Assembly: GCA_012845835.1 (NCBI GenBank)
Contig: JABAKD010000024.1
Location: forward strand, 5,906,078 to 5,970,077
Source of the DNA: Undaria pinnatifida
Lineage: Eukaryota; Sar; Phaeophyceae; Laminariales; Alariaceae
Direction: 5' to 3'
DNA length: 64,000 nt
Shown one piece after another: positions 17,929 through 60,500 of this stretch. The translations under genes and the position numbers were made by a program. Every line of letters starts with the position of its first letter. Position 1 is the stretch's first letter. Below the pieces are notes generated by a model. That model had not been told where the DNA came from. It did no database searches and was given only the letters and a program-made list of their open reading frames with translations.

Positions 17929-18004
17929 ACTCGGGCATGGCATCTCGTGCGGATCTCCAGGAATCTACGGAGATGTGTCCGAAACGTTTCAGCACCCCAA
18001 CGAA
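17929..18004 (-). pseudogene. Decayed copy of the NPRL3 terminal exon edge
   Basis: acgcgtcggactcgggcatg followed by tctcgtgcggatctccagga aligns with the real terminal coding exon (acgcgtcgaactcgggctca, tctcgttcgggtctccaggt at 18139-18200). It lies about 200 bp downstream of that exon in transcript sense and has no open frame matching the protein. Confidence 0.65.
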
Positions 18005-18137
18005 CCGACCGTTCGATCGGCCAATCCCGCGTCAAACGACTAATAATCTGAAGACGCCTAACCAGTCAACCAGGACCACCTGCGCATGATCACCATATTC
18101 GAGAGATCGACGGACCAACGAACTGATCGACGGAAAA

Positions 18138-18264
18138 TCACGCGTCGAACTCGGGCTCAGCGTCTCGTTCGGGTCTCCAGGTCTCTACGAGGATGTCGCT
18201 GTAACTCTTGAGCAGATGCTCCACCGCTTGCGGGTCAACGATGTCCAACCGCCACACCACCTCC
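18138..18264 (-). CDS. NPRL3: NPRL3 exon 14 (terminal)
   Basis: Acceptor tttttccaacag precedes the exon. The first base completes an Arg codon split with exon 13. It encodes EVVWRLDIVDPQAVEHLL and ends EPEFDA then TGA. It corresponds to the family C-terminus, where a Glu-Glu-Ile-Met-like segment is followed by a helix ending in a Leu-Val motif. Confidence 0.85.
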
Positions 18265-21200
18265 CTGTTGGAAAAAAGCACGACAAGATCGGATAAAACA
18301 AGGCGACGCGGAACATAAGACAAGAAAGGACACAACAACAAAAACGGAGCATTACCTAAATTCGCACAAGACAAGACAACACAAAACAATAAAGCACAGC
18401 ACAAAACAACACAGCGCAACACAGCGCAACACAACGCAACACAACACAACATAACACAACACAACGCAACACAACACAACACAACACAATGCAACACATC
18501 ACAAAATAGGAGCGAGCAAGAACAAGAAACAAAGAACGTTGAGAGACATACTACAACCCGCGAGGTAGAGCGCTTATCCACGGTGTGTGCCGCGACACCC
18601 TGGGCAAAAAAAATAGTCAAGAAGAGGGAGTAGGGGCGTGCAGCAGTACAGCAGTACTGCAGTGGTATGGGCACGACTGCGGAGAACCTTCCCCCCCGCC
18701 GCCGAATCCCCCCCCCGCCCCCCCTCCACCTGTTCCCTTCCCCCTCCGTAACCCTCTCCCCCCCCAGGAAACAAGATAATGCTACAAATACGTGCGTATG
18801 GCAACAGCTCAGCGGAAAAAGGCGTCACAGCGTCAAATATCAAGACGCATGCAAGGATATTGGCCGCACCTAATTTTTGCGAAGTCAGGAGCTCCCTACC
18901 CCACCAAAAACTCATACCAGTTCGACAATAAACATGAGCTCGAAACGACTAATGCTTGCAAAAATGTGCGAATTTTCAATGTCTTACGGAAAGGGGCGTC
19001 AAATAGACATCGCCGGGTCAACCAGCCCATGTTTCAATATTTTTGATCTAGCTGCCTCGTGAAACGATTACAAACGAGCCTTACCGTAAGTTCTTGGTGG
19101 CAGTGAGTGCCGCATGGCCTCAACTCCATATCGACCTTGCCTCTACTTCGTGTCCAACTAACACATCTTGTCGGACTGGCAAGAAAAAAAAAGTTTATCC
19201 CAATAAACGTTATCATAGAGGCCGAGTAGTCTACAGCAATTGTCCTACCCGAAGCTAAGCAGATTGTGCTCTGATCTAGTACGATCTGTGCCATCTGTAC
19301 ACGTTTCCACGTGGTGGTCTGTACACTATGCATGATCTACACATGTCAAAATCCAATGCTCTGCAGGATCTATGGGCCAACAGATCACGACGTGTTCAAC
19401 GTCTTCAGCGTCACCGTATTAAAGCGCTATGATATACCAAGGTTGTTCGACACGTACACGTTTCCACCCGATGCTCTGTACGGTGTGCATCATCTATAGA
19501 CATGTCCCTAACCCACTGATCTGCTGCGAGACCTAGGGCAGACAGATCATGGTATTACACGTCCGACCTCGGCAACAATCCAAAAAGTGATCTGTTAATA
19601 ATGTCCTACCGGAAGCTAAGCTTTCCTCTGAAAAACGGGGCCAGCCTTCGCATCAGCTTTCCAGTTTCCGAGCCATCGTCGCGACTTCTCAAGTATTCCT
19701 CTGCTCGTAAAAGAAATGGGGGGCGCGGGGGAGAGCGGGCACCGTGTGGAAGGCGGAGAGGGGAAGGGCGACAAAGGTGAGCGGGGGGGGGGGGGGGGTG
19801 ACCGAGGGAGATAATGGCGGTGAGGGAAGGGAGGGGGGGAGTGGGGGGAGTGGGGGGAGTGGGGGGGGCAAAGTAGAAAGAGATGAGGGAATGGAGGAGT
19901 GGGAGGTGAGGGGAGGGGTGGAGTGGGGGGGGCTGTGTTTTCCAGGCCTCACCGCATTCCGCGAGTGTCATGCACGTCCATCCTTCAACCCACAAATGTG
20001 CCAGTAGTGTCTGCGACTTGGCGCAGCTTCGAAAAAACTGCAGTGGGGGTCCCTCTATAGCGCCAGGTGAGTAGTGCCGGTTGCCTGCTATAGTGCCTGT
20101 AAAATCGCTTCGTACGGACGGGAACAACCTGTAGCGGCAGTATGCGAGTAGTGCCGGTTGCCGCTATAGTGCCCGGGTGTGTCCGGCTGACACATACCGG
20201 TACTAAAGCGGCAACCAGCACTACTGTATTGGTAGTCCACGAAACCTCTGTATTATAGCTCTTCTCCAAGAAACTTCCCAGTCGGACGTGGCCACGGTTA
20301 CGAATAGGGGTGCAGTAATCATTCCTCTATAGTACCGGTTTGTGCACTATATAGAGGTAATTACCTGCACTATATCGGCAACCGGCACTATTCGGCATAC
20401 AACCACTACTGGATTTTCTACAACTGTGGCAAGCGATTTCACAAGCAATAAAGCGAGAAACCGGCCCTACCCAAGCCGCACTGTAGATGGACCACTAACG
20501 TAGTGTGTGTAGTCGAGAATATTGTCACCAATTTGTCAAAAAGCTGAGTCAAGGTCTACGCGTCTGCGCAGCCCTCATCTGTGCTTCTCTCGGGATGGAC
20601 GCATCTCACGGGCCTTCTAGGCAGGAAGACGTGCCCGCACATTATACGTGAACGCTTCCAAGGCTACAGAGCTTGCACATTTCACGGCAACCTATTGGTT
20701 GTTAAGCACTATCCACCGGCTACTCAGACACTGCGACTACGTGGTCTAGTGAATAGCGCTATAAAACCGTTGGTACAACAAAAGTCGCGCTGTGAGCTCT
20801 TTTCTTCATGACAGCCACAGAAGGTGATTCTTCGAGTATCTATGCGTGTGCGCGTCTGTTTGCGTGAATGGAGTTGGCTTGATATCGTGGGGCGTCGCCA
20901 GCCGAAAAGGGGAAACACACGCTTTCCAGTGACACGCATGAGCTACTGCTTCTTGCTGCAGCTGTATGCTTCGTGTACCTGGTATGAGGTCCCGACCATA
21001 TGTGTGTGTATTTGTAGCATTGGACGTGAACGTGGTGTCATCGTTGGATCCCCTGCTGTGCGCGAAACATACACACACCGGGACTACTGGCACAATGGCG
21101 AGATCCTGAAGCACGGCTGCCGCTGTACCGCTGCTGCTGTATTGCTGTATACCAGGTACTGATTGTGTGACTGCGAGGCTGAGCGACTGCTTTTGAACAA

Positions 21201-24200
21201 TAAAACCCACCGCTCTTCTGGACCGTTTCGTGTGCCGATGACAGCACGCACCCCATCCCGAAGGAAAACCTTGCATGTGATACGAATACAAAAGCAGATC
21301 GTGCGGCTCACACCCGGCAACATGATCTATCGGCCATGCAGATCACATAAACCAGGGATCTGTCTGCCATGGGAGGCAAATACCTGGCCTGGAAGGCATA
21401 TAATAGGGATCTGATCTGTCAGATGCGTGTAATTGGTACGTTTTACGAGCCCCTCCAACTCAGGAATTATATCCCTGACCCCCCCAAAAAAAGACTCTAA
21501 AGACAAAAAACAAGTCGACAACCGAGAAGCCGGTGAACGATGCCATGGGCTCAAATATCGAACGAATAACATGAAAACCGACACAGGACGGTTTTCCAGC
21601 ATTACGGGGTACTTCCTCCGCTACCCCCCTTGACAACGGCACCCACGTTATAAGTGAAAAGAAACGTCTTGAAAATAGTGTGGGGTACGTTTTCCAGTTC
21701 GAAGAAAAGGTTACCTAAAAGGTATATATAATAAGGATTCTACCACTGCAAAAGTAATCCCATACAAATTCCACGTACTTTGTCTCAAAAACATGTGTGC
21801 GTGGTCTAAACGGGGTGTAACGCCTTCACGACTGGGAACCCGTTTTTGAGGGAAACAACTTGGAGTTAATACAGGGAGGGGTTTTGAGGCTCGAAAAGGG
21901 TTAAAAAGGCCCGTCAATCATACCAGGTAACTATTTTGGCCAAAAAGCGCTCTGCCATCCTGTGACAAACCTTCAAATGGCTCCAGCGACGGAGTTTGGA
22001 GCCGGCTGTACCCCGTCGCTTCCACGCCGTTCGACCCCACATTCGATCCGTAGCTCGCCCCCCCCGCCCCGCCCCCCGCCCCCCCCGCCGCTGGCGCCGC
22101 CACTGCCGCCCCCTCACCTAATCCTCCCCGTCCCCCAACCCCAACCCCACCACCAACACCGCCACCACCCCCGACCCCCGCGACCCCAATGCTACCACCG
22201 CCTCCGTTAATACCTCCACCTTCGCTGTGTCTTCGCCTTGGGCTGATATCTTCGACAGCACCCCCAGTAGCGCTCCTGGCTTCCTCGGCAATAGTCGAGG
22301 GTGCGGTGTAGGTGTGGGCGTTGGTGTTTGCAGGGGCAGCATTGGGGGTGTTGGCGTTGGCGTTGGTGTTGGTGTTGGTATTGCTGGTGTTGGCGCTGGT
22401 GTTGGTGTTGGTGTTGGTGTTGGTGGGGCTGGTCTTTGTGTTGGTGTTGGCGTTGGTGTTCGTGTTGGTGTTGGTGTTGCTGGCGGCGGAAGCAGATTCG
22501 GGCTGGAAGGGGTGCGACGAGGGCTCGGGGATGCTGAGCACGATATACCGCTGCGACTGCACCAGAAGGTCCCGCCGCAACAAAAACGTCAGCACCGCCA
22601 CCAGTACATGGCGTTGGGACTTGACGTAATATTTTGCCGAAGGAGGTCGCAGAGGCGGCGGCGGGGGAGGGGGGGGGGGGGCGCATTCATTTGTTGCTTG
22701 CCTTAGTCATTGGACCATTGACCACGCATCCCTTTCGAGACGGAGCGAGGGGGCGGGGGGGGGGGGGGAGGGTTAAGAAGGAGGTTGTGGGGGTGGAGTT
22801 CCAGTGAAAGGTCGCGATGGCGGCGGTGCCGGCGGCAGCGGTGTGGCATGGGCGGAGCAAGAAGGGCGCTGTGGGCGTGGTCGATGGTGTCGGTGGCGGA
22901 GGGGCTGGGGAGGTGAAGAAGGAGGATGGGGGGGGGCGGGGGCGGGGGGCAGTGGTGGGTGGTAGCGGGGGGAGGGGGGGGGGGGGGGGTCACGACGGAG
23001 GCTGGCTGGGGGGCATACGGTTCAGTGGAGAGTAGCGGCGGTGGCGGACGGGGGGGGGGGGGGGGGGGCATTGCAGTTGTGGGTGGCGGCGGTAGGGGCG
23101 GTGGGAGCCGTCGGGGGGGTCGAGGTTCGGCAATTTGAGGGGGGGGGGTCACGGCTCTATTGTGAACAAGTATTGGCGCTATTTGATGAAAAAGAGAACT
23201 GCTATGGCGGCACGCGTCGCTGAGCATAACTTCCAGTTCTCCTAGCGTCAGGAGGTGGTAGAAGGGGAGATCACATGAAGGTGGCGGCAGAAGAAGGGCG
23301 GGGGGGCGAAGAGAGGACAGGGGTGGGGAGGAGAGGGGGGGCGGGGGCCTCTTAAGAAAAAAACTCAGGAGAAAGGTCGCGCTACTGTAGGCAAAATCAC
23401 TCCAAAAGCGTGGATACCATAGAACACCCTTACTGCGCGCGCGGCACGATCTTGAATAAGCTGTCGAAAAAAATATAAACCTCCGCCTATCACAGTCGCG
23501 GCGGCGATAGCACCGTGCTCACCTTTCTAGCTCCGTCCATGATTTCGGACAGCGGGCGATTCTCTCCAAAGCGGGTGAGCTCCTGCGCAAGGGTTAGCAC
23601 GGAGGGGAGGGTGTACGTGCGCGTTTTTTTCGCATTAAACCGCTATTGTCGCGCATCGACATCCTGCACATCCAGCGTGCAGTGGGCGGGGGGGGGCGTG
23701 CTCATTCCGTGCGACGTAGTCTATCGGTCGTGGCATCCTTACAAAGCCATCGGTGAAATACAGAGGGGGGGCGGGGCGTAGTCAGTTGTTGTTCACCTTA
23801 GCGATTTGACCATTTACCACGCATCCCTTTTGAGATGGAGCACTGCAGTGGGTGGTGACGGAGGGGAGGAACAATATCGTGACGTAAAACTGATCGTGTC
23901 GGGTGGAGGACAAAACAAACCAATCGAGGCGGACTCTAAACTACCTGTTGGTCCTGCAAGACAACACAAGTGATTCGATACCGGCTCTAAACGTATCTAT
24001 TGCAACTGTAAGTAAGCTGTGTATGCGTAGATAAATGAACGCCGGAGTAGAAAAGTCGCAATCAAGCCGCCTCTCGTTGCCACTCCCACAGTATCACAAA
24101 GCCCACGCGTATAATATACACACACCTCTATCAGCAGCCGCTTGGGAAACTTCGCCGAAAATTCCGCCATGACTGGAGAGAAGGGCATCGAAGCCCGCAT

Positions 24201-27200: not shown

Positions 27201-30200
27201 AAGCCATCTCTTCGAACGTCTGGTGTGGGTTCGCGGTCTCTATCAGCTTGCGGACTTGCGGAGAGCCGTCTCGAGGGTGCCCCGCTAAAACGCTATTCGA
27301 ATATTGATAAAGAGGGGTGACAGAGAACGGCGTGGGCGGGAAGGGAGGGGGGGGGGGGGGTCAAAGACGGGGGTGGAGGTGGAGGTAAAGGGTTGGTGGT
27401 CGAGAAATAGGACTATACCCAAGACTATACCCGTAAAAACATGTTGGGCATAAAATAAAATATGGGGATATATCGGGGCGGGTTTTCTCAATAAGCAGGG
27501 ATTTTCTTAACAAGATGGATTACTCCGGAGGCAGAACAGCCGGCGTCCCTGGTGGTTCAATTGTAAGCCGCGCAACTATTGAGGTTGACGTCATAGGTTC
27601 GAGCGCCGCAAGAGATTCTTACACGATGACACGCTGAAAACGCGAGAGCACGAGTTAGCGTAATTCGATGCAAATCGCCGGGCATAAAAAGGTGAAATGT
27701 GGCAATGCCGAACCCTGTGCGCCATTAAAATCAAGGCATTTACTGGAGGGGGGACAAAGGAAGACATGGGTGACCACGGCTTGTCCAGAAGGTCACTGAG
27801 AGGGTAAAACCTCTTACGAGTTGAGCCGCAAAGTAAAACCTCTTTCAAGTTGAGCCGCAAAGAACAAGTGATGATGAACAACCAACAACAACAACAACAA
27901 CAACACAAAAAATAACAGGCCCAACTGCGGGACACCTAAGAAAGCATAAACGCATCACCATGATAGAAAAACACCCAACACGTAGAGCAAAAACAGCAGA
28001 ACGGATACAAGCCTATGGAAAGGGGTTGCAAACACGATTTTCGCACACCCGGTACAGAAAAAACAGACGGGTCAGAGGAGACCAAGGGAAAAACATGGGA
28101 GTTGAAGTAGGAGGCAAACATGATTCCTGGGAACGGACGAAACAGCCACTAACCGCAGAGGAAATCCACGTGTACATCCTCCTAACGACTAGAAATCCCC
28201 GTGTGTAGCCCCCTCCTCTCCCCCATCTTCTCCCCTCTCCTTACCCTCCCCTGCTACCTCTCTCCCTCCCCCCTCCCCGCCCCCTCTCGCTTACCCCCAC
28301 CCCCATCCCCTCCATCACTCCAATCCCCTCCGGGCTGACATACATGTGTTTTTCCTCGCGCAGAAGAAGGGTCTCGTATCGTCGAGCATCCGGGATTTTC
28401 CGCTGCGTGGTGACGTTGATCGATAGCCCGCTGGACCTAAACGTTTGGTTAGAGCCGTTGGTTAGAGCCGTCGGGGTACGTAGAGACTTTCGGCTTTGGA
28501 GACGTTGGAGACGTGAATCCTTCCTATTTTCCCATTCGCCCTGATGCCAACCCTGAATTGATCATAGTATGATTCCAAGTGTTTTGTCACCATTTTTTAG
28601 GACTGCGGCTCTAAACGTGACAAAGTACCGTTCTTAATGACACGCAAAAACAGCAACGACGAAAAACATTTTACTAGTCGGTTGCCATAATACGACAGTT
28701 CTGCAAATATCGGAAGTTTGAGTTAGCCTATCATTAAAAACGGCCCCACGGTCAATCGTCAGCATCTGCGCCGCACAAGCACCGGTTACAAAACGGAAGT
28801 ACCTAATCGTGGTCGACGTGGCTGAACGGGTACAATCGCAAACTTAGGATGCATGCGTTGACCTACACAAAAACGCCTAACAACAAATATTTTTAACGGC
28901 GATGACACCTGGAGAAAAAACAGGGGGTAAACGCCGATAGAAAAGGCAAAGCTAAAACCCCCCAGTGCTGAGGGCTCGTCCGGTTCCCATTGAGTCGGGA
29001 CGGGCCGGCCGACCAGTCGAGTCGAAGATCTGCCTCTCACGCTATCTCACTTTTTGATTGTCATCTCGAAAGGCGCGTCGCTCGTGAGGCCTTCGAACAG
29101 CGTCCGTAGGTCCTGTGCCATCTGGTGCTCCTGCGGCCGACCATGGGTAAGGCAACGGGGGGAAACAAACAATTTATCAAAATTATTTCAGATACGTCAG
29201 CTGTGAGTTCGACCAGTTGAGCGGTTGACGCCAATCTTCGCAAGCTGTGCTATACTTCGGCCGTGCGTTGGTACGGATGTATTATTCTCTGAGGATATAG
29301 GTCAATGAATTCCATGTAAAATACCGGTAGGTTTTTAAAAATTAAAAACAACGGTCTCGGGTGTGCGCGTAAGCAAGCAGCTCCATCCACAGAAACGACA
29401 ACTGCAACGGCAACAGCGACGGGGAAAACACCATCACCCTGTACAGCACCGTTACCACCACCACAACCACAACCACAACCAACACCAACACCAACGCCTT
29501 TGCCACCCTTAACTCAACCACCACAGCAACCGTCGCAACCATAACCACCACCAACGGCACCACCCCATTCCAACCCCCTCCCCTCCCCTCCCCTCCCCTC
29601 CCCTCCCCTCTCCTCCCTCCCCCTCCCCTCCCCTACCAAAACCGTTACAGCCCCTTTTTTTCCTACCACCCCTCCCCCCACCTTCCGCGACGACTAGCAC
29701 TACTATAACCCCCCCCCACCCCCCTGCCCAACCACACCACCTCCCCTCCCTCCTCCTCTACCAAAACCATCACGTCACCACCCCTGAATGCCCTACCCCC
29801 CCCCCGCCCCCGCGCCGCCCTCCCACGGAAACAATCACCCCTGTTGCGGTTTCCCGCCACTCAGCCTCTCGGTCTGGGGAATTTTTTCATTCTCCCCCAT
29901 CGATTCCAGTGCGTGACCAACCACAGCATCGCCCCATCCCCTCGTCGCTGCCGCCTCCATACAAAAACCAAAGCGAAACATGCAGGTTCACCGAAAAGAA
30001 AACAAACAACCCCCCCCTGCTCCCGCCTCCATACAAAAATCAAAGCGAACCTAAAACGCTTCCATAACCGCCTCCCGCCGCTCGGGCCCTTGACTCCCTC
30101 TCCTCCGTCGGCTACAGTGCGAAGCCACCAACACCACCCCCCGCTTCCGCCTCCTTAGCAAATCAAAACGAGCAAAGCGGAGGTTAATGACCTCGCCAGC

Positions 30201-36200: not shown

Positions 36201-39200
36201 ACCAACACCAACACCAACACCAACACCAACACCAACACCAAACACCAACACCAACACCAACACCAACACCAACACCAACACCAACATCAACACCAACACC
36301 AACACCAACACCAACAGCGGTTTATGCGTGTGTGATTTTCATATCATACTGACATACTGATACTCCCACCCATTGACATCCAGCACCCACAGTGCCCGCG
36401 TCGATGCCTCATCCTATGATAGAGAGAGACGCTCTGTGGTTACAATCTATGAGACAGAGAGATACGCATTTTACATCGCAAACGCTGTAACGGTACCTTC
36501 ACAGTAACCCTAAGCCCGCGAGTACGCCAAACAAAAAGAAACGCGGTGGTCAACAGCTCGATTCAGCTCAGCTCAGCTCAGCTCAGCCAAGACGTGCCTA
36601 AACAGCGCGGTCGATAAACCGCACGCCATCGAGATTAGCAATAATAATGAAAAACAATCGCCATAGACTCGTTATTTATACCGAATAATGCTAAAAAGCA
36701 GCACAAATTGGACCCAGCGAATCTGGGAAAGTTTCCCAGATGAGAACCTCCGTTATTATATATATATATGTATAATGTATATTGTGGATACCAGGCCCTA
36801 TCCCCTAGATCGTACCGCCTCGTTATCACTAGAATCCTTCACGGCCATCCTAGCTCCTCGAGGGCACTCTGAGGTGTTCCCTCATTGCTGACCGTCGAGC
36901 GTGCGGTTACGCACATATCCCACCTGGGTGGGTCTCCACACCTACATCTACGAAAGAGATCAACCTGCTACGGGACTACCGTTCCAGAATATATCATTTT
37001 AAGAATTACTTCCACAGCTCGAGGCTTTACCTTCAGCGACCTTGTGGACAAGCAGTGGTCACGGGTGTCTTCCTTTCTTCTCCCCGGAACATGCCTCCCT
37101 TCTGATCGCGCGTAGGGGTCGGCATGCCCGGTCTTGAGTGTTTTATGCTCGTCGATTTTCATGGAATTGTGCTAACTCACGCTCACGCGCTTCCCGCTAT
37201 TAATACTCATTATCAACGCGAGAAAAATCCCTACTTGTATATACATCACGAATATGCATTCGATCACGAATATGCATTCGGTGAGACCAAAAGCACATAC
37301 AGTCAGATTTGTTTCGGTCAAAAAGATCCAGCGGTATATTCTGTTGAACGCCATAGCAGAGATGAAAAACTAATGAAATCGGGTTTTCGACGAGAAAAAA
37401 CTCCTTGGAATAAGCATGGGATAATTTTGGTGTATCAACAGCCAAAATATAAGACCATTCTGGTAGTTGATAAGACCAGTTCAATTGGCTTTGTCGCCGG
37501 GGCCTTCTTAAATTGGGCACGGCACTGTAGCGGGTTGTGCTTCACATGAATAACTCCGATAGTCAAAAATGTTTCCGCCAAAAACATCTACCTCCACAGC
37601 ATGCGACACCAGTAAAGGATCTCTTATTTCTGACCAGGATGGACTACTTATGTAAGGCAGGGTGTGCCTTATACTATTTTCAGTGCAAAATAGTCCATGT
37701 TCTTATTTTCGTCAAAAAAGCGACCCCGAAACTCTTAGCTGCCAAATTATTGAGCGCCGTCGCGGACACGGCATTGAATAGAGCACGCGGCTACTGAGCC
37801 CAAAGCGAATTACAATGGCGGCTCCACTTTGAGACACGCCGTGACGAACCCCTTCATCTGGTCTCATCTCCAGTTCGGTCTTATTCCGCTGTGAGACCCC
37901 TTTGGTCTCAATCCGGCATACTACTAAAACCCGATTCAAGACCTCGTTGGTCTTGATCCGGGACACTATTATACTAAAAACCCGGGGGGAAAGTCATGCA
38001 CGTGTAAACTGCACACGATTTCTTCGGCTAAAAGGTTCGCTCATACCGGCCCCGACGTCCTCGAAAGGCAGACAAGTTGAAGGTGAAAACGAATCGTAAT
38101 AGGCTGACTGCACTTCGATGGATCCATCAAACAAATAGTGAAATACTTTAAAATACCAACACCAACCACTATAGTAGAAAAAAACAAACTATGTATATAT
38201 ATGTTTTTTTAACAAAACAATATGACCCCTCCCATTAAGAAAAAACTCACCCACATAGTATATTACAAGTACCAACAACGCAGCTTGCAAAGATGAGTAT
38301 TGACCCGAAATTCGTCGAACTCACGGCTGACGTCCTTGAAATATTTTCATAAAATAGTGCACTGACATGTCAAGTCAAGGGTCTTGTAAATACCAACAGT
38401 TGTACAGGCGACATTCTAGTAACGCCGTTTTGGGGCGTAGGGGGTAAATCGGTAATATCTACCAGGGGATTTTTTTTTCGTGACAGGCCTGTCTTACCCG
38501 GCCTTATCTCCCAAAATGTCTTAAAACGGATGGTCTCAATGGGGTAACCGGTTTAAGACCCGCCTGGAACAGGCCAGTGTTACCCCTCTTCATCTCCGTG
38601 ACGCTTTTATCAATACCAGGTAGGTTACAGTACAGGCGTCACACACAAGCCGACGTGACCGCTCTTAACGCCTTTACAACTGGAAACCTGCTTTGGGGGG
38701 AAAATCACTTGAAATTTGTATAGGGAGGGAGTTTGAGGCTTTCACGGGGTTAAGTTTGTACTCTCTTTCTATAGGCGCTCTTTAACGGGGTGCCCTACTG
38801 TATCCCCTGCCATAAAACGAGTCCAAAAATACATCATACCTGAACAGGGCGGCTGATAAAGCGCAATCCGTCGAGGACAATTTCCAGCAGCTCCCCTGAA
38901 AGAGCTCTGTTCGCTTTGAGCAGCTGAGTAAGGCTCTCGGGCGATATCCTGTCGAACAGGCACATCGTTTCTTCGCATGGCCATAGGGCGGGGGGGAAAA
39001 GAGGAGGGGGACGGCGATGGGGGAGGAGGAGAAATGGGGCAACATGCACGGATCGAGCAACAGCAAGACGAAGATCATGAGTAAGACCAGAGGGTGTGTA
39101 GGAAAAACCGAGCAATTAGCTAATCCACCGATCGATCGGCTGGCCAACAGCACGACCCGCCACCACAGATGTCAGGAGGCGGTCAGTCAAGGATACACTC

Positions 39201-46500: not shown

Positions 46501-49500
46501 GTGTGAGGGTGACCCGGCCCGACCCGTGATATTGAAAACCTCGTGACGCGACCCGAGTCGACCCGTGAAAATTACAACACCTCCTGACCCGACCCGACTC
46601 GACCCGCGGGTTTTGGAAATGCCTCCTAACCCGACCCGCGGGTTTTTGAAATGCCTCCTAACCCGACCCGCGGGTTTTTGAAATACCTCATAAACCGACC
46701 GGCGGGTTTTTGAAATACCTCATAACCCGACCCGCGGGCCGGGTTATGACCCGGGAAAATACCTGGTTTTTATGGTTTCCGTGCGCAGAGTGATTACATT
46801 ATGAAATGCGGTATGGTCTTTGTACCACGCTGTTGACCCTGGTATACACTAGCTGGCATACTAGCTAGCCACTAAAAGAGAAACGCCAACCTAAATCCTT
46901 CGTGAGGACGTGTACACCCCGTCACATACGCGATCGGAGTAATGCGCACAGCTTGCAACTATGTATGAGTTTTGACGAAATCCTTGATCTGACGGTCGTA
47001 CGAGTGTGTTTCTAATGCGTAGTGTTTCTGTCCGTGCCCTTATGTTTTTGTAGGTGAAGTTGAAGCTGGAGTACAACGGCGGCATCAGGGTCGTCGTCGT
47101 CACCGGCTCCTACTCGATCCAGAAACTTCGCCAGGTTTGTCCCCCCGTCGGTTTTGCCTGCGCTTTCGTCGGTCGTTTTCTTAGGCACCGGCTCTCAGTT
47201 CGGTGTTTCTTAGGCACTGCTTAGGGGGGGGGGTTATCCCTTCCCATCGGAGATGGCAGGATAAGCAATTGTGAAGGCGGCGGGGGGGGGGACACTATTA
47301 TTGGATTTTTTTTTTTCGAGGAGAAAAGTTGAGCGAATTCTATGGGTAGTGCGTATTTTCAAGGCACAGCATCATCGCCGGCCAAAGCACAGGAGCATCA
47401 ACCTATTAATAGAGCCTCGGCAAGCTGCAGCACCCAAGCACAGGTCACTCCATATCGTTCGGCTTGGGTTTCCAAAAAGCGTTGCCTCGCCCCCGGGGGG
47501 CCAGTCTGCAACTGCTGAAGATACTGTAGCTCTCGCTCGGCACTCGCACCGGTTGGTATTTGTGACTGCCGTCAACTGTTTCTGCGTTGGTGGGGGGGTA
47601 GGAAAATCCAAACCCAACCCAACCCAACCCAACCCTTCCCAACTCTAACCTACCCAACCCAACAATATTTTTGCTGTGATTGAGCTTTGCCGTGCGCGCC
47701 TCAAAATGGTGAAAAGTGGTCTATGAGAGATCGGCTCGTCGTGTGAAACGCGGGACATGGAGAATGAGCCCCATACATTTTAGTGTCGTGGGAAATTATC
47801 CGAGTGCTGCCCCCCCCACGTCAAAACACAACAACACGAAACGACCCCACTCGAGAAAATGTTTGTACCCGTTCCTATATAAGACGAAACGAAGAGTTGC
47901 TTGACATAGAGCGCTTTTGCGACGCCTTTTTTTTATTTCTGGCAGCGCTTGCGTGAAGACTACAACTTCGACGTGTTCTTGGAGTACCAGGACATGGACG
48001 GGGATAGGGTGAGTGAGGGCGGGTGGGGGCGAGGGGGAGGGAGGGGCCGGCGGGGGGGCTCGGACTGAGGGAGGGCGGGGGCGGGGGGTAGAAAGAAGAG
48101 CGGGAGGCTAAAGAGGGCGAGAAAGAAGGGGTTGTGTCGTCCATCTTCCTGGTGCTTGTTGTTTCTGTTGTTTAGTTTGTTGTTTGGGGTGTTTTGGTCG
48201 CGGTTGCCTCTCCTGTTGTTGCTGGTGATGGTGCTGTTGTCGGTGACGTTGCTGCTGCAGTTGGGGGTTGCATGTATTTTGTTGTTGTTTCGTTGTTGTT
48301 TGCTTCTGCTTCCATCGTTGTTGCTGGTGGCTGTCGCTGTCGCTGATGATCGTACTGCCGTTGCTGTTGTCGTTTGTGTTGCTGCACGTTTAAGAGTAGT
48401 TTGTGGGGCTGATGCTGTGTGAATTGGTGTATACAGTTGTTGGCGTTCGTTAATCGCCCAATGGTATTACACCCTGGTTTTGGGGGACGATTGCCATGGG
48501 TTCGTGCGAGACGAGTCTGGCTTTGCACAAGCTAGATCCATGTTTTCAATACTTTTAGACCTTTCACGTAAAAAACAACGGGTCGGAAGGGGTCAAAACT
48601 TGATTATTCCCCATCCCACTCCACCCCATCCCACCCACACTCCAGGTTATACTTAATAGCCAGAACGACCTCAACGAGCTCCTGGCGAATGAAACAGGGC
48701 CGGTTCACGTAGCCGTAACGGTAGCCCGAGAGCAGCCGCCCCCCGTCCCCCCACCCCCGCTACCGCCTCCATCTTCTTCTCCCGTACCTTCCATGGTGTC
48801 GCCAATGGAGATGACGCTCTCAGTGCGAGGAGCGAGGACGGGGGCTGCCGCGGGGTATGAGCTGCGCGGGGGACAGTATGGGGTGGGTAGGGGGATGGCG
48901 AGGGGAGGGGGGAGCTACGGAGAACAAAGAGGGGGCGGCCGAGGGGAGGTGAGAATTTTTGGTGGAGGTGGTGGTGGTGGGCGCGGAGTGGGGGGGTGGG
49001 GTGAGGGGGACGTACTAATTTGTTGCTTGCCTTGGTCATTTGACCATTGACCACGCATCTCTTTCGAGACGGAGCGCCGGGGCGCGGAGGGAGGGGGGCA
49101 TAGCGATGCTGATGTTGTTGGTGAAATTTGAGGCAGTCGGTCTTGAGCTACGTAGGGTTTTGTGTCTGTCTCTACGGGGTTCTGACGCTGTTGCTGGAGC
49201 ATGGAGCGGTTGGTCTTGAACTTGCGTCAACTTCTCTCTCAATCTCCCTCAATCCCTGTACTTATCCCCCCCACCCCCGACACACACGCCATTGCAGCCT
49301 CGCTCGCCTTGCTTTCTTTTCACGGCCATCCGCCCACCCACCCAGGTAGGCACTCGATAGTATATGTCCAACAACCCTATCCCGTCTTCCCTAAACGCCC
49401 CCCCTCCCCCCCCAGCGTCTCGCCTCACCTAGAATACAAGGCGACGACTCTTGTGGGGCGCAAGCTCTTCAGGAGCTGGTTAGGAGCGGCAGCCAGTCTG

Positions 49501-52500
49501 ATCGCAATAGCCCAATGGCAGATCACAGTGCCAGCCAAGACAGATGGGGACGGGGTAGATTGGAAACCCGTGGAGGCAGGGGTGGTGGTGGCGGAGGCGG
49601 GGAGGGGGGGACGCGATCGCGGGGATCTGCTAACTCGAATCCTTGGCGAAAAGGAAGCGAGGGAGACCCTGTTCGGTGGGTTGTGTTGTGTTGTTTTGGG
49701 CCAGGGAGGGGTTGGGGGTTGGCGGGAGGGCGGGAGGGCGGAGAGGGAGGGAAGTTCTCGATTACCCGGCTACGGTTATCTTGTTGCGAAAGTTTTTGTT
49801 TTTGTACCCACATGGCCAAAGAAAGGTCGGGGAAACACCGGAAGAATACTATCCAGATGAGAAGAGATGGGTAGTTGTTTAGTTATGTAGTTGTGTGTTT
49901 AGCGCGGGTACACACGAGCCGACGAGCTAGCAAAGTGCTGACCCAGCTGCGCCATGAAAACCAGGATGAAAGCCGAATCAGGGAGAGGGGGGGAAAGGGG
50001 CGGGGGCGGGGGGGGGGCGGGCATGGAGTTCCTCTTGTGAGAAGCGCCTGAAATGAACAACCTCAACTTTAGGTGCATCCCTTTCCCGTATACTAGCACG
50101 CGTCCCGACTTGACTCCTCACCCTCTCCCTCATGTGGCCCACCACCACCACCGCCGCCGCCGCCGCCGCTGTAGCCCCTTCTCTATTTTTGTTTTGTTAT
50201 GAAGATGACTTTGCGGAGGCGTATTAGGCGAAGGAGCTTCGGCACAGAAGACGTGGCGCTTAACTTAGAGACACGGGACCACCCCCCCCCGTTCCCCTCC
50301 CTTAGCGCCCCTCATCTTCATGTCGTGCGCCACTGCCACCACCAACTACCGTGTTCCCTTACTCTTGTGTTTGTTTTCGTTGGCAAGGTGGGTTTACGGA
50401 GACGTAATCGGCGAGGGGGCTTTGGGGACGGTACACATGGGGCTTAGCTTAGACACGGGGGGGGCGGGGAGTTCCCCCTCCTAAACACGCCTCATCCTAA
50501 TGCGGTGCAACACCAGCACTAACAACGACCACGTTGTTTCCTCGTGGTTATTTGGTTGGCCAAAGTGGCTTTACGGGCACGTACTAGTGGAGGGAGTTTT
50601 CGGCACTGTACACATGGGGCTTGACCTAGGCACGGGGGATCCCCCCCCCCCCCCCCCCCTTGTCCCCTCCCTCCCCCTCACTTGCATGGCATGCGCAACC
50701 ACCATCGTTCTTATTTCTGTTTTTTTGTTTCGTCAAGGTGGCTGTGCGGGGATGTGATAGGCGAGGGAGCTTTCGGTATGGTGCACATGGGGCTTAACTT
50801 AGACACGGGGGAGCTGATGGCGGTGAAGAGTGTGTCTCTCGACGAGGGGGACATGAGCTCGGCGGACGCTAAGGCTTTTGAGAATGAGATAGCCATTCTT
50901 AGGGATCACAAGTGAGTGGGGGATCTTAGGGTAGGGTAGGGTAGGGTAGGGGTAGGGGTAGGGTAGGGTAGGGTAGTGTAAGGTAGGGTAGGGTAAGGTA
51001 GGGTAGGGTAGGGTAGGGAAGGGGGGGTAAGGTAGGGTAAGGTAGGGTGGGGTAGGATAGGGTAGGGTAGCGTAGGGTAGGGTAGGAAAGGAGGGGTAAG
51101 GTAGCGTAAGGTAGGGTGGGGTAGGATAGGGTAGGGTAGGGTAGGGTAGAGTAGAGTAGGGTGGGATAACCATAGCGTAGACACGGGAGAGATCACGATT
51201 GCGGTGAAGAGCGTGTCTCTAGATGGACGGGATATGAGCTCGGCGGACGCTTAAGGCTTATTAGAGCTAGATCGCCGTTCTCAGCGACCGCACGTGAGTG
51301 GGATGTGGTGGAATAGATAGCGTAGGGTAGGTTAAGGGTTCCGCTTTTTTGGCCAGCACGACTCTGACCGACGGGACTCCTGTACTGAGAAATTGCCCAA
51401 CGTCACTGGAGTTCCAATTCCATTCGAATGGATACGGGGGATAGGATTATCATATTGTCGGGTAGGGTAGAAGGATAGGAAATCTTAGGGTCGGGTGGGG
51501 TAGGTTCGAGTTGGAGTTGGCAGAGTTGTGCTGCTTTTCGTTCCTGTCGGTAACGAGCGGGTGAGCTTCAGGGGTGAAAAGGACATCGACCCACGTTGAC
51601 CCTTCCCTCCCCCTTTCCACCTCCCCCCCCCCTCTCCCCCCAGTCTCCCCAACCCACGTTGACCCGCCCCCCGCAGTATAACTCATTGGTGCTGTCGTCC
51701 ATATGCAAGAAAGTAGGCACAAGGTGCCGAAGTCTGTCTTACGAGCGGTTCTTGGAAGGATGCAGTTCGGCCTTCATGCGAACACCTCACGGCGCTTCGG
51801 GCATGGTGCAAGCGATATCTGCCTGGTTGGTGAAAACCCGATGTGCTCCGTCCCGGCATGGTAGGGATGCGAGGGTGTATGGTCATACGACTACGGCCAT
51901 GCACAAACTGAGTACTCCCCCCCCTCCCCTTCCCCCTCCCCCCTCCCTCCGCCCTCTCGCCCACCAAAAAAAACGGTAACGCCACCCTCCTTTCCTATTT
52001 TCATCCTCCCTCTTTCTCATTCCCACCTCACCCCCCTCCCCCCTCCTTCCCTCCCTCCCTCCCTCCCGCCCCCCCCCCCAAACCCTTCCTTAAATATCCT
52101 TACCCCTAAGGCATGAGAATATCGTGAGGTACTACGGCAGCGGCCTCAACGGGCATAAAATGTCAATTTTCTTGGAGTACATGCCAGGGGGTAGCGTGAG
52201 GAGTTTGCTCGACCGCTTCGGGGCTTTCGAGGAGAAGATGACCAGGCTTTACGGAGCGCAACTGATGAGGGGGGTAGACTTCTTACACAGCAACGGGGTG
52301 GCGCACCGCGACATTAAGGTTTGCTGGTGATATGGAGCGGCTTTTTTTGTTGGAGGGTAAGAGGTTGGAGAGGGACGGGGGAGGTTAAGGGTTAACCCAT
52401 TTAGAGCCCCAACACCCCTCCCTATTCTGAATCCAAGTAATTTGTCCCCGAAAACGGGGTTCCAGCTGCGAAGGCATTATTGGCAGTTGTGAAGGCGTTA

Positions 52501-55500
52501 TGGGGGGGGGGGGGGGTAACGGGTCGTGGGGGAGTACTGTACAGAACCGTTGTGACGTACCGCGAAATCAGCGTTTGCTGGCTGTTGTGGTGGGAATGAT
52601 TGCGGTGACGGGATATGGGGTGGGGGGGGGGGGAGGGGGGGGGGGGTACACATGCGTAGCCGTAGTTGTGTGGTCATAGACCCTGGCTTCCCTACTATGC
52701 CGGGACGGAGCACGTTGAGGTTTCACCCCACCCGGCAGAAATCGCGTGCACCAAGCGCGAAGCGCCGTGAGGTGTTTGGCGAGTCGCATGAAGGACGGCC
52801 TGCATACTATTATGAAACAGTTGAGAGGCGGACTTTCCGCACCTTGCGTGTACTTTCTTGCAATTGGGACACAGCTTTTGAGGGGTGGACAGGGGTGGCT
52901 TCAAGCGGCGCACCGCGAAATCAGCGATTGCTGGCTGCTGCGGGAGGGATTTTGTTTGCGGGGGCGGGGTAAGGGGTGTAAGAGGGTGTACTTCCAGCAC
53001 AGCAAAGGAGGCGGCGCATCGTGACACCAAGGTTTTGGGAGGGAGTTGGTACGGGTTCTCGTGGCGTTTTTCTTGTAGGGGTAGGGGAGATGATAGGACT
53101 TTCGGTTTTTGGTGTTGGTGGGTCTATATTGTCGACTTTTGCTGTTAATTCGGTTTGTGAGGCTTTGTCGTTGTTATCGTCTTTGTTGCTGTTGATTCCT
53201 TTTTGGTTAGTTGGTCTTGTAGTTGTTCTTGTCGCTGCTCCTTTTCTAATTTTTTGTCGCTTTCTTGTTTTCGTTCTTGCTCTTTGAGTTGCTGTTGTTT
53301 TGTGGGCATTCCTGAAGCCCCCACCCCCCCCCCTCTATTTATGTCCTCCGATGTCTTGACGGTGAATCTCAGGCGGCGAACTGCCTTGTGGACCAGCGCG
53401 GGGCCATCAAGATTGCCGATTTTGGCATGTCCAAGCGCATAGTGGTAAGAAGAGGAAGGAAACAACTGCCGTATCACTTCGTTTCAATTTTTTTTCTTCA
53501 TTTTTATGTCTGGCTCGAGACGTAAATGCCCCTGCCTGCAGCGACCGCGGAGTCTTCGCTTTACCTCCTCCATTTCTACCGCTCCCTGCCCCCCCACCCC
53601 GCCCACCCGTCCCCCCCCTTCCGCCCTATGCCCTTCCCAATGCCTTATCCAAATACGGCTATATTTGCCCTCCCTTCGTTTTTGTCGTCCCCCAACCCCT
53701 CATCCAACTACGGTTATTTTCCCTTGTTACGGTTTTCCACTGTCTCCATTTGGCGTTGTCGGGGGGGCTGATGGGTGGGGTGGGGTATTGCCGTCTCCAG
53801 GGACTAGCGGGTTCGGGTAACGCCGGAGTGCAGAGCGTGAAAGGGACGCCATTCTGGATGGCTCCGGAGGTTTTACAGGTGAGATTAACGCTTTTACAAC
53901 TGGAAACCCATTTTTGGGGACAAAATTACTTGGATTTAGTATAGGGAGGGATTCGGGGCCCTCAGGGGGTTAATGTCTTGACCCTTTGTCCTTTCGTTTC
54001 CTTTTCAATCATTTCCACCTTTCCTTTTCTTTTTCAATAATTCCCTAGCCTTTTCCACGCCTTTCACATGTCCGACAGATCATCGATGCCCACCTGACGA
54101 TGTAGATCTTTTTCAGGAAGATCTGTAATAATCTAATACGGAGATTCATTGTTGACAGGGATGAATGCCTTGTCATGTTGCAAAAATTTCACCGGAAATT
54201 GCTCGAAATTTCGCAATATCTCGGCCAGAACATCATACCTGGTATATATTACCAAGATGAGTTTCGACGAAATCTTCGATCTCACAGCTGGAGTGTATTT
54301 TCATTTTTTATAATATTACCGGTCGCCCCGATGGCGTATCAGGTTATCCTCGAGCCTGGTACAGGTCAGTTTCGTGAGTTCGAGCCCCGCCGAGTGCATA
54401 CTCGTAAAGATTCGTTGGGACTTTTTCTTGTGGACAAATTGACTTGCGGAAAGCGCGAGAGCGTGAGTTAGCAACACTCGATGAACAATCGATGAGCAGT
54501 GGGATTGCTGAACCCTATGCGCGATAAAATTGAAGGCAAGAACTGGGGAGGAGAAGGGATGACACCTGTGACCACGGCTTGTCCAGAAGCTGGAAAGTGA
54601 AAGTGTGCAAATATATATATATATATATATATATTGCGCCGTGACCGTAAGGCCTATGCGAACGATCCAAGCTATTATTTACCGTTATCGACGAAGAATT
54701 GACAGAGTTATGACCCCATAGGCATTAAATCACCCCTGTTAACAGTGGATCTCCGTAATAGCTCATGTTGCCGGGTGGGTCCGGCATGATCTGTATGATC
54801 TCGCGCTCAGGAAGATCTGTAATAGTTTAGCTCATGTTGCCGGGTGGGAATGGTATGATCTGCATGATTTTGCACATGCTTCCGGGGTTGGATCTGTACT
54901 CTATACAGGTCCTGCACAGCATCTCATAACGGCAGCTGTAGGATCTACTGTAGATGATCTATATGATCTGTATACAGGTCCTGCACAGCATCTCATAACG
55001 GCAGCTGTAGGATCTACTGTAGATGATCTATATGATCTGTATGATCTAGATCGTGGTGTATCGAAGCTGTTTCACATGTCAGACAGATCAGATCCCTATT
55101 TTTTGTCTTCCAGGGCAGATATTTGCCTTCCTGGACAGACGGATCCCTGGTCTATAAGATCGGCATGACTTATAGATTATGTTGCCGTATGATCTGTATG
55201 ACCTGTGTGATCTGTATAGCCTAGCACGTGTTTCCTGGGTTGTGTCTGTACTACACAGCTCCTTTACAAAATATATTATGACGACAGATGTAGGATCTAG
55301 ATGAGCTATGTCGTGGTCTGTCTTTGGCGTGAAACATTTCCGTTTCGTTCGTTTCCATATCTTCAATCTTTCCCTTCCTTCCGTGTTCTATAATATCTGC
55401 TTTTTCCGCGTCGCGTTCTGTTTTATTGCTATAACCTAAAGCTCCAAAAACTCTTAAGACGCGTGATAAGTACCATCCTTACATTGCTGTGTCCGTTATA

Positions 55501-57474
55501 TGTGCATACGCTCGAATCCTCGTGTCATGTTGGTATACCCTACATATACCCGCATCCGAAATACGTTCAAGATTGATAACACCCGAGATGAGGGGGCGAG
55601 TCACGTCTTGGGTACTGTCCATATCCTTTCTCGTTTATCGACATCCCTTCAAATGTTTACTTTTTTGGGCGCGTTCGTTGCAATATATCCCTATATCCAA
55701 AACCTACTAATTACCCACAACCTCCGCAGGCTTCCCATGACAGGTATCCTCATACCCGTTGTAGCCGCATACGATTATCTTCCTTTTTACCTTAATGGTG
55801 TACTTACTGGTGTATCTATCCCCATATCCAAAACCTGCTTGAGGTCCACAACCTCCGCGGCGGGTGGATGAAGGCGGATGTGTGGTCACTGGGGGCGACG
55901 ATCTTGGAAATGGCAACGGGCAGTCCACCGTGGGAAGGGATAGGACCGCTCGCTGCAATGTTCAAGATCAGCTGCACTAGGTAAAGCCCGGTCCAGAGAG
56001 TTTTAAGTTTTGATGCCAAGTTCACGAATTTTATGTTTATGCAAAGTTTCAAATCTACCGTCTCGGGCTGATGGCGCTTAAGGGCCAGGCTGATGGCACT
56101 GAAAGGGCCAGTAGCTAGATAAGATAACTGGAATCTCGTGAGGTTTCAGATTGTTCTCTCCATCTCTCCATCCGCCCTCCAGCCTCACTCTCTCTTCCTC
56201 CTGCTCGTACTAAATAGTCTTTTACTTCGTTCTTCCCCACCCCTCCCTCCCTCCCTCCCTCCCTCCCTCCCTCCCTCCCTCCCTCCCTCCCTCCCTCCCT
56301 CCCTCCCTCCCTCCCTCCCTCCCTCCCTCCCTCCCTCCCTCCCTCCCTCCCTCCCTCCCTCCCTCCCTCCCTCCCTCCCTCCCTCCCTCCCTCCCTCCCT
56401 CCCTCCCTCCCTCCCTCCCTCCCTCCCTCCCTCCCTCCCTCCCTCCCTCCCTCCCTCCCTCCCTCCCTCCCTCCCTCCCTCCCTCCCTCCCTCCCTCCCT
56501 CCCTCCCTCCCTCCCTCCCTCCCTCCCTCCCTCCCTCCCTCCCTCCCTCCCTCCCTCCTTCCCTCCCTCCCTCCCTCCCTCTTCGGGTGCTCCTGTAATT
56601 GGTCGGCGTTCGGGTTCGGCGGCCGCTGATTGGCCGACTTTTGGATTTGACGGCGACTGATTGGCAGGGATGTGCCGACCGTTCCAGACGACGTTAGTGA
56701 GGTCGCGCAGGACCTCATGCGGCAGTGCTTCTGCAGAGGTGAGGGGTGATAGGGATAAAATGCCGAGAAGAGGGGCGGGAAGGGGGGGGTTGCTACTTTT
56801 GGGGTAAGGACTGTAGGATGAAGCGAAGAAGGGGGCGGGGGGGGGGCGGGGCAAGGTGTCTCGAGGGTAATTGCGGAAAGCATGGTATTTACATCGTAGT
56901 ATTTGTTTTTGTTCTCCGTGTCCAGTTACAATCATGAACACTTGGAGCTGGTCGTACTTAATTTTGCACAAGCCTAGTGTTTATAGTGGCCTTGTGTTGT
57001 CCTTGCCTTTCATTTGACCTATTTCCAAAAAAAATTATCAAAATTCGAAAAGTGACCACTGTATGCCTGATTCTTTACTACACACATTAGATGACAGAAA
57101 ACAAGATAATAAACCTACGTAGGGCGCCCGCAAAACAAGCATATCCTTGGACAGCAGGCGTGCACCAGTGCTATCAACAAGAAAAACGACGCAAGATACA
57201 GCGAACAGAAGACGCTCCAGACTTACTCCCCTGGCTCTGCACCCCTCATCTCCTGCTCTATACTTCCACCCCTAACACGACGACACCCCACGGTTCAGTC
57301 CCCTTCCTTTTTGCTTTTCTCCCCCTCGCCGTAACGCTTATCCCCTGCCTGCAAACCCCGACCCACCGACCACCACTACCGGCGACAGCCACTACCAATA
57401 CCACCACCCCACCCACTAACACCTACTATCACTTTCACCAACGCCAACAATACCACCAATACATCCATCCCCCG

Positions 57475-57510
<36 letters not shown>

Positions 57511-60500
57511 CCCCTCCCTCACCCCCACAATGCCATCACCAGACCCTCAGAAGAGGCCTAGCGTAGCCGAGCTTCTCCAACACCCCGGAGTGTGTAACGC
57601 CTCTCGTTTGCACGAGCCGGTTAGAAGAAGGCCTCCATCCCAGATTACCGCTGTACCCGCCACCGCCAGAAGCCAGGCGTTGCACCTCCTCAAGCCAAGG
57701 GTGAGAGAGAAAGGGTGGGATGGAGTGGCGGGGAAGAGAGAGAGTGGGTGATATAGACGGATAGACAGGGTGACAGCTATGGGAGAGAAGGGAGGGAGGG
57801 AGGGAGAGAAAGATAACCGTGCCCCCCTCTCCTCCCTCACTCCCTCATTGTTTATCTCGACAGGCCCGACATGGAAGCAGCGAGGGCACAACCACTACGA
57901 GCCCTAGGAATACATCTCGACAGTCCGGACAGGGTAGCAGCGAGGACGCCACCACTAAGAGTCCTGGGAAATCGCGCACCGCAAGCTCATCGAGCGCGCA
58001 AAGGACACCGATGCACTCCCCTTCACCCTCCGTGGAGGCAGCGCCAGGGCGGGGCAGCCCATCCAGACTCTCGACCGCGAAAACGGTAGCAGCAGCGAAA
58101 GCGGCGGCAGAAGCTGCAAGGGGAATAGCGGGGACGGGGACGGCAGCTGCGGCGCCGCCTCGGGGAGGAGCTGGGCTGCAACCATCGTCGGTCCGGGCAT
58201 GCCTCCCCACGGTGATGCCCGCCGCGACGGCTTCCAGCCCTTCCGACCCGATGCATCTTCTAACCACGAGGCCGGCGGGGACGACGTGGAAGCAGCGGCA
58301 GCAGCTGGCGGCGCGGACGGGCAAGTTGGGGAGACGACGCTCGCTCGAGAGCGCGTGCGGTCGCGTGGGTGTCGACGATGATGGTAGCGGTAGAGGTGGT
58401 GGTGGTGGTGGTGGTCATGATGGTGGTGGCGGTGGTGGGCACGGTGGTGGTGGTGGTGGTGGGGGAGGCAGGAGGTCAATAGGCCTTCTTGTGCACGCGT
58501 GGTCGCCTAGCTCCAGCCTGGACGTGATGGGCTGCGCCGGAAGTTTAGCGGAAGAGGATGTTAAGGATAGCAGCTGCAGTGGGTTGTCCGTGGAGTTGGT
58601 GGGTAGCGATGTTGTTAGCCACAGTGGGAGCAGCGACGCTGGCGACGGTGACGGTACGGATGGCGGTGGGGGTGGGGGGAAGCGGGTGGCTACTTCCACG
58701 AATAAGTCCGCCCCGGGGAATGCTAGCGTGGTGCCTGAAGCGGTCTTCATTGGGGAGGCTAGCAGTGGAGCCTCGTGGGGGAGCGGCCGCGGACGGCTTG
58801 GTAGCGGGAGCGCTAGTGGTGGTGGTGGTGGTGGGTATAGTGGCGGGAGGGGAGCCGTGAAATCGGACGTCACTGGCTCGTTCTTGCGAAAGGTGTCGGG
58901 TGGGGGAGGAGCGACAGGAGCAGGGGGAGCGGGAGGAGGGGCAGTCGGAGGACGAGGAGGGGCGATGGAGTACGCGAGCGGCACGAGAACGATGGGCAGC
59001 GTGAGGTACTTCGGGGGGAGGTAGCGGAGTGGTGATAAAAAAAAAGCTGTGTTTTTCATGTTTGCTCATTTATCTTTCCTCTTCAGTTTCACGCTGCTTC
59101 GTCTTTCATTTTTTTTTACCTTATGCTTGGCTTTGTTTGCTTCCCACGCTTTGCTATTTTCTCGTGGTTCTCTGCTTTGTTGCTCTATCTTCTGCGTGTC
59201 ATTCTCCGTATTCTCTGCTCTTTGCTCTTCGTCCAATGCTTTGTCCTCGTCGCCCTTTTGTCGCCCCCTGTTCCCCCCCCCTCTGTTCCCTGTTTCCTAC
59301 GCTCTCCTCTGTCCTTGGTCCTATTCCCCCAGCGCCCCCCCAAGAACCAAACGAGTTCGCTCAGCAGACGAGGACTCAGAACCAGCGGCGGCAGCCGCAA
59401 CAGAAGCAGAGGCCGCACTCGAATCATCCTCGGAAAGCGCCTCCCCATCCGTGCCCCCTCCCTCCTCCTCTTCCGCCTCCGTCACCACGACCCCCCCCTC
59501 TTCCGCCACCCCCCCCTCCTCCACCCCCACTCCCTCCTCCTCCTCCCCCCCCGCTCCGCCTCCCGCTGCCGCCGGGGCCCCCGCCTCTGCTGGTGCCATG
59601 GCGGGGGGTAGAGTACCCCCGGAAGGCGGTGCCCACCGCGATCGGTGCAGGAGTGGAAGCGTTGGCCGTAGCGGCAGCAGGAGTCGCAGTGCCAGCGGCG
59701 CGTCTGCGGATAATGGGCCTGTTGGGTCGCCGCCGTCGTTGTCTTTGCCGGTACCACTATCTTCGTCGATGCCGTCAGCGACGGGGGCGGGGACGGAGGG
59801 GGCGGGGGCGGTGGCTGCGTCTGTGCCAGCGCGCCGCCGACAGGAGGGTTCTGTTGGTGGTGGTTCGCGGGGGTCGCTTGTCGGGACGAGAACCGCTCCC
59901 GGTTCTACCACTGCCGCTGAAGCCACGGCTGTTGCCGCGGGTGTTTGCGCAGCTGAAACCGGTGCTGGCACCGATGCTGGCACCGGTGCTGGCACCGGTG
60001 CTGATACCGGTTCTGGTGGCGGTGCTATTACCGGTGGGGGTACTGGCGGTGATACCGGTCCTGTTGTCGGTGCTTCAGGTACTGATGCTCCTATCGTTGC
60101 TGCTGCGACCGCTGCTACTTCTGGTGTTGGCGCTATCGCTGCTGGTACCGCTGCTACTGCTCCTGCTGCCGCCGCGGGGGCAGCCGAAGATCTACCCCGC
60201 TCCACCAGTGGAGCTGGAAGCCAGGCATCCTCGCCCGACCCGGGCCTATCGTCGTCTACCCATCCCGGCTTGTTGGGGCACAGCGGCCGCAGCAGCAGCA
60301 GCAGCGCAAACAACAACAGCGTACAAAGCGCGCCTAGCACCAGCACCACTACCGCCACCATTAGCCACAGCTGGATTGGCGGCGGCGGTGGCGCCGGGTT
60401 TGGCGGTAGCGGTGGTTTCGGCGGCGGGGCTGGCGGAAGGTCGCGCAGCCGGGGGGAGTGGATGGCGGAGCCGACCCGCTCTACCCCTACAAGGCGGGGT

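Follow-up and report, generated by a model that had tools for sequence, protein, structure and literature searches.

Are the exon-intron borders of kelp genes places at which DNA is preferentially duplicated, or do they retain a visible part of duplications that fall anywhere? The question is raised by 64,000 nucleotides of contig JABAKD010000024.1 of Undaria pinnatifida (positions 5,906,078-5,970,077; hereafter, the window). An earlier note on this DNA had pointed to duplicated splice junctions in two unrelated genes, NPRL3 and a protein kinase, and had taken them for a recurrent process aimed at the junctions, with no described mechanism. Our analysis of the window, and of 27 gene regions elsewhere in the genome (511,146,479 bases in 68 contigs were searched), indicates that the pattern is real and recurrent, and that its mechanism is ordinary as far as tested. 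The copies are probably the product of untargeted local duplication, filtered by splicing and selection.

Junction copies in two genes of the window

The exons in the window were read by eye from the sequence, with human NPRL3 as a guide. When joined, the minus-strand exons match the Pfam family NPR3 with 54.3 bits, against a cut-off of 27.5, the best stretch being residues 205-349, after exon 5; with HTH_NPRL3, the same model scores 16.3, below the family cut-off. A search of the whole genome with the NPR3 family missed this gene exon by exon, while the joined exon model does match. The joined plus-strand exons match Pfam Pkinase over profile positions 5-261 of 263, with MAP3K2 as the best solved relative. 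Because the kinase model that omits the decayed copies described below still gives a nearly complete kinase domain, these copies probably lie in introns.

Each junction was assessed by alignment of the 91-base-pair (bp) segment at the junction to its own neighbourhood of ±2.5 kb, using the same neighbourhood reversed as the null. The reversed score was at least 20 above the forward score at 0 of 858 grid positions in the window; scores in the window thus exceed the null. In what follows, the score of a copy is given together with its reversed counterpart.

The clearest case is the acceptor of kinase exon 6 (75 versus 28; plus strand, as are all the kinase features), where an array of units of about 188 bp extends over 50119-50826. 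Every unit holds the end of the intron and the start of the exon, and the last unit alone runs on into the remainder of the exon. That is, three decayed copies of the 3' end of the intron and the first ~77 bp of exon 6, recognised by alignment (50119-50737), precede the functional exon, which encodes the glycine-rich loop (50738-50911) and belongs to the spliced model that matches Pkinase. The end of the same exon and its donor have a copy in the following intron, at 51173-51339 (75 versus 31). Exon 7, which ends at 52318, is likewise followed by three decayed copies of its end and donor within 52541-53087, namely at 52541-52630, 52907-52977 and 52984-53087 (59 versus 26). At exon 10, the pair 55611-55731 and 55743-55861, with an offset of 132 bp, lies across the acceptor at 55844 (55 versus 25), a position set by the reading frame; the exonic part is only about 18 bases long, and in the frequency tests below this acceptor was scored as a match at 55861, with 1 exonic base. 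Exon 13 differs in kind from the other cases. Its acceptor (72 versus 36) adjoins a 60-bp in-frame tandem duplication (57854-57973; 48 of 60 positions identical), found by the program TRF and by alignment and lying in an open frame, through which the final 10 intron bases, along with the beginning of the exon, are now coding. An intron-side match for this exon was set aside, the true copy being the 60-bp one on the exon side.

In NPRL3, on the minus strand, exon 5 is one such case. The functional copy (31968-32226) is an open frame between AG and GT and forms part of the joined model that matches NPR3. In intron 5, alignment shows the exon end and donor repeated as an array (29822-31010), whose members are 30887-31010, 30602-30713, 30405-30528, 30061-30145, which ends at the junction, and a marginal 29822-29924. 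The donor at 31968 scores 90, versus 48 reversed; four of its copies are clearly over a reversed null of 43, and the fifth is marginal at 45. The 3' end of exon 2, as read by eye (38840-38876, with 38840 the last exon base and the donor GT next to it), is the source of a decayed copy of 37 bp that was aligned in intron 2, at 36597-36633 (42 versus 24); the view of exon 2 as only a TCAGC microsatellite was dropped, as the true end of the exon is at 38840 and the copy is confirmed. Two candidates are weaker. One, in intron 4 and so upstream of exon 5, may be a copy of that exon's acceptor (32586-32663; 53 versus 31; 53 of 77 positions identical), although a block search around the junction gave no block. 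The other, which the earlier note had not listed, corresponds to the donor of exon 13 (19241-19274; 40 versus 30). Lastly, what is copied at 17900-17974 (79 versus 24) is not a splice junction but the coding end of exon 14, with its stop codon and flank. The claim that splice borders are duplicated therefore stands for six of the seven sites originally named, each a local direct copy of a junction, and falls for exon 14.

Copy frequency at junctions and elsewhere

The number of copies at junctions is informative only in relation to that elsewhere in the same DNA. In the unmasked window, a difference of at least 20 between forward and reversed scores is found at 7 of 33 junctions (N5a and N5d in NPRL3; K6a, K6d, K7d, K10a and K13a in the kinase), versus 17.5% of the 858 grid positions, which include repeat arrays. 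The 33 junctions come from the kinase exons from 6 onwards and from the NPRL3 exons other than 1, 7 and 12, the exon 4 acceptor excepted; the donor of NPRL3 exon 2 was added later and is outside this count. With simple repeats masked, the figures are 7 of 33 junctions and 153 of 852 controls (odds ratio 1.23, p 0.65).

The 27 regions from elsewhere in the genome (20 with kinase and 7 with TCP1-family matches) provide 62 exons and 124 junctions, the latter refined by a simple splice-site score. For the kinases, 25 of 135 matches were used, mostly from the top of the list, and 3 of these 25 contain an internal stop. Passed over by eye were clusters of matches to the same profile span (among them C1, C2:11.6 Mb, C33:2.5 Mb and C35), very long single frames (C45, C50) and one match with stops (C20). 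For the TCP1 family, 37 of 57 matches were used, some of which contain an internal stop. The controls are positions outside the matched exons, and may take in unrecognised exons and intergenic DNA.

Junction segments with a local copy were found in 3 of the 20 kinase regions and 5 of the 7 TCP1-family regions, and recurrence in unrelated genes is thus supported. With simple repeats masked and a difference of at least 15, copies are present at 15 of the 124 junctions and at 202 of 1913 controls (odds ratio 1.17, p 0.55); a stricter figure is 14 of 124, as the block at L016 5914 is without an exonic part. Removal of positions with dispersed matches, which dropped 23 of the 124 junctions and 306 of the 1913 controls, leaves 11 of 101 junctions versus 142 of 1607 controls (p 0.47), and controls stratified by region give 12.4 expected where 11 are observed. 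A first pass, before the junctions were refined, had yielded 6 of 50 exon edges and 0 of 25 mid-exons, versus 11.7% of 1800 positions; one of those six, the 3' edge in L021, proved to be a microsatellite. The comparison with other positions that the earlier note had proposed, run in the 27 regions and the window together, thus gives a pooled odds ratio of 1.18, with 95% confidence limits of 0.74-1.89.

The distance profile leads to the same result. Approaching the junction from the exon side, the copy rate is 3.5% at -90 bp, 9.0% at -45 and 10.9% at the junction itself; into the intron, it is 10.3% at +45, 12.6% at +90, 13.6% at +150, 16.3% at +250, 20.4% at +400 and 10.1% at +600. Between -90 and +600 bp, no peak is seen at the junction.

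These figures bear directly on the proposal that splice junctions are the target of a mutational process, possible examples being breaks linked to transcription or splicing, and runs of C beside splice sites that act as breakpoints. Besides the six named sites that span a junction, the proposal can draw on odds ratios that, when controls are not matched on masking, lie slightly above 1 over three thresholds (1.03-1.18 in the sample, 1.23-1.57 in the window). However, the confidence limits include 1, with controls matched on masking the sample ratios are 0.85-1.04 and the window ratios 0.54-0.86, and the copy rate 90-400 bp into introns is above that at the junction. Taking all settings together, the ratios range over 0.85-1.18 in the sample, across three thresholds with and without this matching, and over 0.54-1.57 in the window. 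Within the regions compared, no surplus of copies at junctions over other positions is therefore detectable, and a process aimed at junctions, as originally proposed, is unsupported; we regard it as distinctly improbable. An enrichment at junctions of about twofold or more is unlikely, and one under about twofold may exist.

Orientation, polarity and a proposed splicing filter

Block searches around the junctions found blocks for 20 of the 21 junctions entered, with offsets of 117-1056 bp; the block limits are approximate, being the best score of seven splits tried per junction. The gap between copies is at most 20 bp in 9 of the 20 blocks, and at most 65 bp in 15. Identity is 74-92% within blocks, and 67-93% in the alignments around junctions, a spread that points to several ages rather than slips of assembly. 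The possibility of nucleosome-phased units was raised by several unit sizes near 180 and 360 bp, and was rejected, since the offsets of 100 chained pairs are broad and without a clear peak.

The copies are also overwhelmingly direct. Inverted junction copies are found at 0 of 124 sample junctions (48 of 1913 controls) and at 1 of 33 in the window (66 of 852 controls). More generally, local direct pairs make up 6.4% of the 234,513 unmasked bases of the 27 regions, or 4.7% without the bases that have any dispersed or inverted match, and local inverted pairs make up 0.7%. Matches between regions or farther off account for 10.9% of unmasked bases in direct and 10.3% in inverted orientation. One alternative is that a dispersed mobile element, or an introner, happened to carry junction sequence. 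In its favour, dispersed repeats are common in the sampled regions, and one of ~119 bp is embedded in the exon 5 array. Yet the junction copies align with their own exon, none of the 124 sample junctions has an inverted copy, and the 1371-bp exon 5 array has scored matches elsewhere in the genome only within query positions 934-1090, that is, over the embedded dispersed repeat; this last point is weak, as it comes from 40 scored candidates out of 1678. We consider a mobile origin extremely improbable.

The position of the copies relative to the exon is markedly one-sided. Copies that span the junction lie on the intron side in 43 of 43 cases, which come from 18 of the 20 junctions entered; the other two (L030 701 and L032 6968) yielded no spanning copy with the shorter query, and are intron-side in the junction alignments. 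Kinase exons 10 and 13 are outside this count, the former with its copy on the intron side and the latter on the exon side. Copies of control positions, by comparison, are 100 upstream versus 102 downstream. A sign test gives 2e-6 for 20:0, 1e-5 for 21:1, and about 8e-6 for the 18 junctions. Exon interiors are nearly free of copies in the sample, where 1 of 59 exons has one at its middle. In three TCP1-family introns, an exon end and its donor recur after the real splice site, seven times in L032:5896-6445, five times in L034:7849-8499, and three times in L030 (757-1140, reverse strand).

Are such copies of use to the gene, as alternative or decoy splice sites, or as alternative exons, maintained by selection? 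In the kinase exon 6 array, copies 2 and 3 retain an open frame when read by eye; and in copies generally, the GT matches at 83% versus 75% for other positions, and the AG at 82% versus 71%, a slight, nominal difference. On the other hand, in copy 1 of that array the exon's reading frame is interrupted by a stop (also by eye), and the GT is intact in 21 of 29 donor copies and the AG in 9 of 14 acceptor copies. Furthermore, 19 of the 20 blocks, with lengths judged by eye, hold one junction and a partial exon, and so lack the whole exon with both splice sites that is expected of a functional tandem exon duplication; the remaining block, at the kinase exon 6 donor, is uncertain, as it takes in the whole exon only when extended across a TAGGG array. 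Maintenance for a function therefore seems unlikely.

The explanation that we favour, namely untargeted local duplication filtered by splicing and selection, would operate as follows. The genes of this species would gain many short, local, direct duplications, with offsets mostly of 0.1-0.7 kb, without detectable regard to splice sites. A tandem duplication over one junction would create two copies of the splice site, and use of the site joined to the remaining exon would restore the old mRNA; for this reason, a duplication of a single junction would be nearly neutral. The spare copy would then decay as intron sequence, leaving the intron longer by one unit. A duplication inside an exon, or around a whole exon, would instead alter the mRNA or the protein, and would mostly be lost. 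We infer the selection step, the neutrality, and the mutational cause, which may be replication slippage, template switching or unequal exchange. Four consequences follow from this model: similar copy rates at junctions and in introns, copies on the intron side, few copies within exons, and exon-side cases that are in frame. All four are seen, with the reservations given next, the last of them in one case, the 60 bp of kinase exon 13.

Several observations weigh against this explanation. Dispersed repeats occupy ~11% of the unmasked bases and feed the controls. Although 9 to 15 of the 20 junction blocks are closely head-to-tail, in another 5 the copies are 84-551 bp apart, and the gap of 4 bp in the block at the kinase exon 6 donor depends on the extension over the TAGGG array. 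Local pairs in general are looser, with a gap of at most 30 bp in 26 of 100 chains and of more than 100 bp in 53; on a stricter definition, 9% of 109 BLAST pairs count as tandem. The polarity is in part a matter of ascertainment, since exons of known domains were chosen, in which any exon-side insert would have disrupted the domain match; it is thus partly built in. Mid-exon copies are present in 2 of 8 exons in the window (the last NPRL3 exon and kinase exon 6), and the mid-exon depletion has a p of 0.013-0.086, depending on the setting. Lastly, whole-exon duplicates were not seen, where only 7-20% of events are expected in that class.

Duplication of this type is not without precedent, contrary to the earlier statement that no described mechanism explains it: tandem genomic duplication, including across an intron-exon boundary, has been published (PMC4974935, PMC3443670). 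In the RdRp gene of potato, the reported duplication extends over such a boundary and gave rise to an additional intron (PMC4974935). The kelp cases resemble it in the direct tandem duplication of the 3' end of an intron with the 5' part of the next exon, and in the inheritance of the splice signals; unlike the potato case, the kelp copies decay inside existing introns, and kinase exon 13 gained 60 coding bases. No new intron is apparent in the window, where the copies appear to lie inside existing introns and models that omit them match NPR3 and Pkinase. Tandem genomic duplication is also among the mechanisms of intron gain covered in a review (PMC3443670). The Rogers or AGGT type of intron gain (Rogers 1989; Gao and Lynch 2009) reportedly likewise involves direct tandem duplication in genes that splicing hides from the protein. 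There, however, the block is exonic and creates an intron, whereas the kelp block already holds a junction and enlarges an existing intron. Within brown algae, a study of ROCO genes describes shuffling of leucine-rich-repeat exons, in which whole, in-phase exons of 72 bp are kept and used (PMC11378527). Both systems involve brown algal genes in which blocks with exon sequence were duplicated repeatedly, but the kelp copies considered here are partial exons with one splice site that decay in introns. Among the papers listed in the literature searches, which were mostly outside subscription journals, there was no survey of brown algal introns for decayed copies of splice junctions.

Thus, junction-spanning copies would be the expected residue of a high load of untargeted local duplication after the filter of splicing and selection. 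Of interest are their apparent frequency, about one in eight of the sampled junctions, and their polarity, through which the proposed splicing filter becomes measurable. This polarity can be measured in any annotated genome, and would indicate how freely splicing buffers duplications and what share of intron length derives from old exon. The suggestion in the earlier note that introns grow by this route holds, in that junction copies make introns longer; that of new coding sequence holds in a single instance, kinase exon 13, with no other instance seen. A broader possibility, which we put forward tentatively, is that single-junction tandem duplication behaves as if neutral, leaving a recognisable copy at ~1/8 of junctions, and that through it exon ends and surplus splice sites pass into introns in one direction only. 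Such a transfer might be a main source of intron growth in this lineage. It might also maintain a stock of cryptic sites that could give rise to alternative sites or, as in kinase exon 13, to new coding sequence.

Other repeats in the window

Aside from the junction copies, the window contains three families of short dispersed repeats, each in both orientations. The first, of ~80-120 bp, is found beside runs of C at eight places in or near introns of NPRL3 and the kinase (22660-22746, 23765-23843, 30814-30900, 31811-31888, 32285-32369, 33821-33903, 35591-35670 and 48997-49079). With the exon 5 array as the query, at least 41 further genome matches fall over this repeat, with 40 of 1678 candidates scored. 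The second family is located at 14112-14227, 31433-31547, 51811-51903 and 52650-52745, and the third at 16331-16430, 21818-21904, 34904-34995, 38663-38753, 45138-45212, 52389-52479 and 53885-53973. At ~8500-9020, a stretch next to a long AG repeat translates as X, hence N in the DNA, and is probably an assembly gap. A hexanucleotide array of the GGTGTT type, at ~22347-22485 in the large NPRL3 exon, appears by eye to be coding, and a kinase intron contains a nearly perfect CCCT tetranucleotide array of 341 bp (56241-56581).

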